From Calditrichota bacterium (lineage in GTDB: Bacteria; Zhuqueibacterota; Zhuqueibacteria; Zhuqueibacterales; Geothermadaptataceae): a DNA stretch of 64,000 nt. Below the pieces are notes generated by a model. It did not search any database and was not told where the DNA came from. It worked only from the letters and a program-made list of their open reading frames with translations. This document shows, piece after piece, positions 40,134-47,570 of the stretch. A program made the position numbers and the translations under genes. The DNA lies in assembly GCA_008501765.1 (NCBI GenBank), contig QQUE01000017.1:1-64000 (forward strand). The letters are read 5' to 3'. Each line of letters begins with the position of its first letter. The stretch's first letter is position 1.

Positions 40134-40373
40134 AATCCGTTGTGCATAATTCAATTGGATTCTAAGCTTGGGGGAATTTTTCCTGTCATTCCTTCATTCT
40201 TTTAGCCGAACCCAAGTTCGGCGAAGCAATCGCGAAGCGAGCTGGTAGTCGCAAATCCACAATTGTGATAGCATGGATTCCCAATAAAAGCATTTGGGAA
40301 TGACGAAAATATGGAATGAACTTAAAAATTGTAATTTAAACCTGACAAAAGTTCTATTATGGCACAACGGATT
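40134..40373. repeat. R3 family, copy 2
   Basis: Perfect 12-bp inverted ends AATCCGTTGTGC (40134-40145) and GCACAACGGATT (40362-40373), with a GATTCCCAA...TTGGGAATGAC hairpin near 40269-40304. It carries about 50 bp of extra sequence (AGCCGAACCCAAGTTCGG ...) compared with copy 1. No convincing target duplication. Confidence 0.75.
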
Positions 40374-46819: not shown

Positions 46820-46985
46820 GTCATCCCGGTTTGCATTTTTTGCAATACCGGGAGCTCCCGAAAATGTGCTCAGACGAGAAGATTCCGGTATTCTTTTGCT
46901 TCTGTAATTCAAGTTATATGCATTTCAACGACAGAATTATTTTGGAAGCGTACTTAATTTCCAAGACAAAAGAAACCGGAATGAC
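46820..46985 (+). repeat. Repeat R7, left copy
   Basis: 166 bp with 13-bp inverted ends GTCATCCCGGTTT / AAACCGGAATGAC (one mismatch). It is in direct orientation with 47404-47570. Long identical blocks are shared: GCAATACCGGGAGCTCCCGA and a 34-base block CTCAGACGAG...TTGCTTCT. The middle (46911-46955) differs. Confidence 0.92.
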
Positions 46986-47070
46986 GATTCATTTTTTATT
47001 TTCTACGGGAAAAGATTTTCAGGTTCTGGAATTTAACGAGAGAATATCAAGTGTATAGGGGAATGCTCCA

Positions 47071-47370
47071 ATGAACACTTATTTTGTTTATATCATGACC
47101 AACAAACACCATACAGTTCTCTATATTGGTGTCACTAACAATTTGATTCGCCGGGTTTATGAGCATAAAACGGGTGCAGCGGATGGATTTACGAAAAAGT
47201 ACAATTGCCATAAGTTGGTGTGGTATGAAGAAATTCCAGATGTCAGAATCGCGATTGAACATGAAAAACGTATGAAAAAGTGGAAGAAAAAGTTCAAACA
47301 GAATTTAATCAACAGTCTAAATCCTGACTGGCGTGATTTATATGGGGATATCGTAAATACTAATACCTGA
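47071..47370 (+). CDS. GIY-YIG nuclease, short UPF0213/YhbQ-like family
   Basis: 99 residues, entirely a GIY-YIG domain. The first motif is YFVYIMT, the second LYIGVTNNLIRRVYEHK with the catalytic Arg and His, and the metal-binding Glu is in AIEHEKRMKKWKK. The conserved ending FKQNLINSLNPDWRDLYG follows. GGGGA lies 9 bases before the ATG. These small nucleases are often present in many copies per genome, and the biological role of most is unknown. Here the gene is bracketed by direct copies of an R7 repeat, which suggests that nuclease and repeats form one unit. Confidence 0.93.
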   Translation: MNTYFVYIMTNKHHTVLYIGVTNNLIRRVYEHKTGAADGFTKKYNCHKLVWYEEIPDVRIAIEHEKRMKKWKKKFKQNLINSLNPDWRDLYGDIVNTNT

Positions 47371-47403
47371 ACCAAGCTTGGCAACATACTTCTGAAACTG
47401 GCT

Positions 47404-47570
47404 GTCATCCCGGTTTGCGGTTTATGCAATACCGGGAGCTCCCGAAATAGTACTCAGACGAGAAGATTCCGGTATTCTTTTGCTTCTGCAATTCAAATTA
47501 TTTGAATTGCACGGACTGAAAAATTTTAGGAATATGATTTAATTTCCAAGACAAAAAAAACCGGAATGAC
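47404..47570 (+). repeat. Repeat R7, right copy
   Basis: 167 bp, ends GTCATCCCGGTTT / AAACCGGAATGAC, direct copy of 46820-46985. Confidence 0.92.

Follow-up and report, generated by a model that had tools for sequence, protein, structure and literature searches.

Palindromic repeats with a CGTC or TGTC tag, stems that open with AT and CCA tails were described by Di Nocera et al. (2013; PMC3733652), and the REP superfamily delineated in that paper includes dRS3 of Neisseria and RPE-4 and RPE-6 of Rickettsia. None of these repeats is tied there to transposase genes, and a dedicated transposase was apparently lacking. In RAYT/REP systems (REPtrons), a single nuclease-type gene is boxed by REPs, many solo REPs are present and the enzyme clade is tied to the REP class; RAYTs are HUH/Y1 tyrosine transposases and their REPs are tagged with GTAG. 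GIY-YIG nucleases are known to cut branched DNA and cruciforms, the related nuclease ANKLE1 among them (cruciforms; PMC10287932). Searches of the open-access PMC literature turned up no report of an association between GIY-YIG genes and repeats of the REP type.

The locus described here lies in a stretch of 64,000 nucleotides, referred to below as the window. It resembles RAYT/REP in gene arrangement, solo repeats and clade–class linkage and differs from it by a GIY-YIG enzyme and a GTC tag. The system works along RAYT/REP lines but, having no HUH transposase, falls outside that group. With the CGTC/TGTC-tagged REPs, as matched to the consensus given in the text of the paper, it shares short (C/T)GTC-tagged palindromes and paired copies, and elements such as that on contig C14 of the same genome also have the AT-opening stem and the CCA tail. 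Whereas no associated transposase gene is reported there, the gene that keeps recurring beside the repeats here encodes a GIY-YIG protein.

Results

Organization of the nuclease gene and its repeats

The following features were located in the window:

46820 to 46985, + strand: R7 copy 1, the left of the two dimers, with outer ends GTCATCCCGG and CCGGAATGAC; first hairpin at about 46824-46853, second at about 46882-46982; fold z -6.0
47071 to 47370, + strand: predicted GIY-YIG nuclease, 99 amino acids; putative catalytic Y7, Y18, R28, H32, E65 and N84 conserved in the family; AlphaFold pLDDT 93.6
47404 to 47570, + strand: R7 copy 2, the right of the two dimers, in direct orientation and with 86% identity to the left one; first hairpin at about 47408-47437, second at about 47466-47567; fold z -5.7
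40185 to 40304, no single strand: GTCAT pair without a gene, GTCATTCC... on the + strand at 40185 and GTCATTCCCAAATGCTTTTATTGGGAAT on the - strand at 40277-40304; from the hairpin scan
1729 to 1756, - strand: single GTCATTCCCGCAAGTATTTAGCGGGAAT hairpin of GTCAT class CCCG, without a gene; from the hairpin scan

The open reading frame matched PF01541 (E 2.6e-16; 60.1 bits vs a cut-off of 22.6). This domain match and the conserved putative catalytic residues, which we take to correspond to those of I-TevI, identify the predicted protein as a member of the GIY-YIG nuclease superfamily. Among 15 relatives, Y18, R28, H32 and N84 were invariant and Y7 and E65 were conserved in at least 90%. The structure was predicted with confidence, and the nearest solved folds were UPF0213 BH0048, the N-terminus of UvrC and Slx1. 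BH0048 (PDB 1ZG2), one of the small UPF0213 or GIY-YIG_SLX1-like proteins, was the best structural match with the same size and fold, but identity was 23% over the structural alignment and the papers found on this group mention no association with repeats. As judged from dN/dS ratios of 0.01–0.15 in most pairs, the gene is under purifying selection; among Sphingobium pairs, where the estimate is based on seven changes, the ratio reached 0.37.

The 86% identity of the two R7 copies extends over their whole length. Each copy consists of two successive hairpins, and folding with DNA parameters was far better than that of dinucleotide shuffles for both. The sequence-only reading had described a 99-residue GIY-YIG nuclease between direct repeats with inverted ends; this description held, with one mismatch between the ends GTCATCCCGGTTT and AAACCGGAATGAC. 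The GIY-YIG gene is the only gene inside the 751-bp block, so that no HUH tyrosine transposase of the RAYT/REPtron type is present in it. Three of the four R7 ends read CGTC or TGTC and one reads AGTC, and by this measure R7 carries the (C/T)GTC outer tag of the superfamily. Only hairpin 2 has a stem opening with AT. Compared with the repeats in PMC3733652, R7 is longer and has no CCA tail.

Paralogues and solo repeats in the source genome

The genome encodes four stand-alone GIY-YIG proteins in addition to UvrC. All four stand-alone genes lie within palindromic repeats of differing families, and uvrC lies outside such repeats. The genes on contigs C14 and C10 each lie within a single element with hairpin ends GTCATTCCC/GTCATCCCC, the C3 gene is surrounded by tandem copies of a different palindrome, and the gene on C21, the window contig, lies between the R7 copies. 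The C14 element GTCATTCCCGAATGCTTTAATCGGGAATCCA has the AT-opening stem, the short stem and loop and the CCA tail.

Full-length R7 occurs in the genome just as the two window copies, and its first hairpin was found at about 15 further places without a GIY-YIG gene. R7 copies away from GIY-YIG genes had been named as evidence against a link between the two; such hairpins do exist, and they are equally expected of gene-less derivatives. The pattern GTCATTSC..GSAATC occurred 126 times compared with 2 occurrences of a reversed control. The sequence-only reading had linked the nuclease to R7; the association is not specific to R7, which belongs to a large family of GTCAT-tagged repeats.

Two further observations concern the same genome. 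The C10 paralogue (L004, G000:C10:70807-71079) contains an in-frame TGA and looks degenerate, and its GTCAT-type ends are kept. R7-like hairpins (L010, L012, L014, L018, L020, L023) are often located within a larger element. Its ends resemble CCCGTTGTGCAAAAT...ATTTTGCACAACGGG, and it has the look of a MITE in its own right.

Association of GIY-YIG genes with GTCAT hairpins across bacteria

A five-sequence alignment retrieved at least 568 relatives, the best 80 of which span more than 20 named phyla. The upstream and downstream 300 bp matched each other at 60 of 73 GIY-YIG loci (82%) but at only 7 of 284 small open reading frames (2.5%) drawn as controls from the same loci (Fisher p 6e-47). With such a control frequency, a repeat match as strong as that in the window is not due to chance. 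The matching flanks were direct in 34 pairs and inverted in 26. Among all 1024 pentamers, GTCAT ranked first as an outward-facing word shared by both flanks (51 of 77 loci), and at positions shifted by 2–3 kb it was found on both sides in 0–4 of approximately 60 loci. With an explicit hairpin required on each side, outward GTCAT flanked 23 of 75 loci and none of 567 control open reading frames. The same gene-in-repeats anatomy is present on complete plasmids.

At the annotated loci examined, neighbouring genes vary and the repeats alone recur, and these loci do not share the single conserved target site of a homing endonuclease. A gene boxed by REPs together with solo copies in the genome, as in REPtrons, was found. 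Four taxa listed as CGTC-positive in PMC3733652 have a GIY-YIG gene among GTC-tagged repeats; the tag is GTCAT in Neisseria, Azospirillum lipoferum and S. meliloti and GTCG in N. aromaticivorans. The proposed analogy to RAYT/REP is supported by the bacteria-wide association, the tracking of repeat class with protein clade and the abundance of solo repeats; its restriction to R7 was not.

Many matches to the pattern GTCATTSC..GSAATC face each other: by eye, 14 of the 25 listed for relative G024 make up seven such pairs, with the two members on opposite strands and about 20-30 bp between them. On plasmid p1 of Planktothrix agardhii (L149), a GIY-YIG gene and many GTCATTCTGAG repeats are located between a type IIL restriction enzyme gene and DISARM drmA.

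Repeat class, protein clade and host genome

Repeats were classified by the stem letters that follow GTCAT. On the protein tree, which is poorly resolved with its 95 columns, repeat class required 29 changes compared with 46.3 in free shuffles and 39.5 in within-phylum shuffles, and none of 2000 shuffles was as low. The window and C14 proteins, the two proteins of the source genome on this tree, group with different repeat classes, each matching its own flanks. The link between clade and class could also arise without recognition, if gene and repeats are passed on together as a unit.

Three hairpin classes were counted genome-wide in 36 host genomes, and the flank class is the most abundant solo class of the host in 27 of them, compared with 12.8 expected and a maximum of 24 in 20,000 permutations; the two classes disagree in the other nine. 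Among 60 relatives, gene presence correlated weakly with the number of repeats of the class (Spearman 0.35, p 0.006), and a rank test for window-type genes gave p 0.13. Genome G032 has 326 GTCAT hairpin matches with UvrC and no stand-alone GIY-YIG gene detected, and G004 has 240 matches and encodes, besides UvrC, one longer protein with the GIY-YIG domain and a GIY-YIG fragment of 42 aa. Gene loss or broken assemblies could account for such repeat-rich genomes without a detected gene.

Sites with and without the gene

In the search for an empty site at the window locus, its upstream neighbour had no match in 14 relatives. Elsewhere, sites lacking the gene were present in relatives at three loci, contrary to the possibility, raised as a refutation, that empty sites are missing. 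Six relatives retain the uvrC-NHL order and have no GIY-YIG gene or GTCAT repeat there. Between sufB and sufC, A. lipoferum has a dimer-gene-dimer arrangement; neither gene nor repeat is present in A. oryzae and A. ramasamyi, with approximately 94% identity around the site. In the fnrL-fixJ gap of Sphingobium plasmids, some strains carry GTCACCCCGGGC-gene-GCCCGGGGTGAC, and in two strains a 27-bp solo repeat stands in place of the gene, with outer ends identical to those of the gene-bearing form. Strain TYG72 has neither gene nor solo repeat at this place and TYG65 has a different palindrome.

No target-site duplication was found at the uvrC-NHL, sufB-sufC and fnrL-fixJ sites, whose empty junctions are too diverged to resolve one, and a search of four 50-kb regions of Sphingobium for such duplications detected the gene toggle alone. 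No repeat indel separated two Sphingobium megaplasmids with 97% identity across 50 kb, the Rhizobium plasmids searched yielded no resolved empty site, and no transposition event was seen in these site comparisons. In sister genomes L037 and L038, the GIY-YIG gene is at the same site with one amino-acid change (dS 0.34), and the number of repeat copies in the arrays on its flanks is not the same.

Discussion

The block in the window is probably a single copy of a minimal mobile element in which GTCAT-tagged hairpins bound a small GIY-YIG gene, with the gene-less hairpins ('CGTC/TGTC-tagged' REPs) as its non-autonomous derivatives. We put this reading forward on the anatomy, the bacteria-wide association, the tag and its orientation, the class–clade linkage, the presence/absence polymorphism with exact outer ends and the purifying selection on the nuclease, as documented by sequence comparison; that the enzyme recognises, cleaves and mobilises the repeats is what we infer. 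GTCAT hairpins would be extruded as cruciforms or form on single-stranded DNA in replication, and the nuclease would bind the GTC tag and the branch point and nick or cut there. Repair of the break may then place a copy of the hairpin unit, or the unit itself, at a new site, either together with the gene or alone. GIY-YIG enzymes are hydrolytic nucleases that are not known to join strands, and joining would thus fall to host repair. Further points against this reading are that no target-site duplication or transposition event was seen at the sites compared, that some genomes rich in GTCAT hairpins have no detected stand-alone GIY-YIG gene, that gene presence correlates weakly with repeat number, that co-inheritance could account for the link of clade and class, and that the classes disagree in nine of the 36 host genomes.

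An unlikely alternative is that resident REPs were spread by other means and that the nuclease cuts gene-less REPs, repair from a gene-bearing copy inserting the gene between the repeats; the gene would then move independently of the repeats. GIY-YIG is a classical homing-endonuclease domain, and selfish spread by DNA cutting, as in free-standing GIY-YIG homing endonucleases, is a possible mode here. The abundance of gene-less repeats, the Sphingobium solo repeat at the place of the gene-bearing form and the agreement of the flank class with the abundant class of the host all suit such a homing parasite. In contrast to free-standing homing endonucleases, there is no fixed target gene here, and the constant neighbour is a repeat and not a host gene. 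Against the homing parasite, sister species lack any repeat at uvrC-NHL and sufB-sufC, so that repeats and gene look gained together, and the repeat class follows the protein clade across phyla, which suggests that repeats travel with the gene.

A role for the host, in which the nuclease trims or resolves cruciforms of these repeats or is itself regulated by the flanking hairpins without any part in mobility, is less probable still. Purifying selection and a fold close to the nuclease domains of Slx1 and UvrC would fit it; the patchy presence of the gene, close relatives having the sites without it, and the paralogue in this genome that is interrupted by a stop and looks degenerate would not, and we see no reason why a host gene should have these repeats on both sides in direct as well as inverted arrangements. 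Small dispensable genes might also simply pile up in repeat-rich intergenic DNA, and MAG assemblies do break at repeats, with GIY-YIG genes lying between other genes. Such hitchhiking or artefact is very improbable and is already contradicted by the controls, since small open reading frames of the same loci had matching flanks far more rarely and were never boxed by outward GTCAT hairpins; complete plasmids, moreover, share the anatomy.

With its recurrence beside such repeats in more than 20 bacterial phyla, the GIY-YIG nuclease is the first good candidate for the spreading of a widespread repeat class without a known mobilising enzyme. In the description by Di Nocera et al., CGTC-tagged REPs apparently had no dedicated transposase, and a recurrent, constrained nuclease gene boxed by REPs across phyla makes this question directly testable. 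Confirmation would mean that the enzymes driving the spread of bacterial repeats can include a hydrolytic GIY-YIG nuclease. It would also explain why small genes with the frequent annotation GIY-YIG nuclease or excinuclease ABC subunit C occur scattered through genomes with no clear role. More tentatively, and as a possibility rather than a probability, this may be a new kind of bacterial mobile element with a GIY-YIG nuclease as its sole enzyme, which made and still spreads GTCAT palindromes across most bacterial phyla, sister subfamilies doing likewise for TTCGA-type palindromes and tRNA-derived repeats.

Other GIY-YIG subfamilies

Genes of a subfamily with the motif GQTNNLxRRLxEHxxGxSPYT are located near tRNA genes, mostly tRNA-Lys(CTT), and between partial tRNA copies (L188-L196; also L045, L046, L049, L050). 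A tRNA gene was present in eight of the nine loci L188-L196, whereas the 37 loci from the other two subfamilies had none. A different type of palindrome, TTCGA...TCGAA or CCCCTCGATAC..., encloses the UPF0213-like GIY-YIG genes at the six readable loci (L001/L225, L218, L220, L222, L223, L226).
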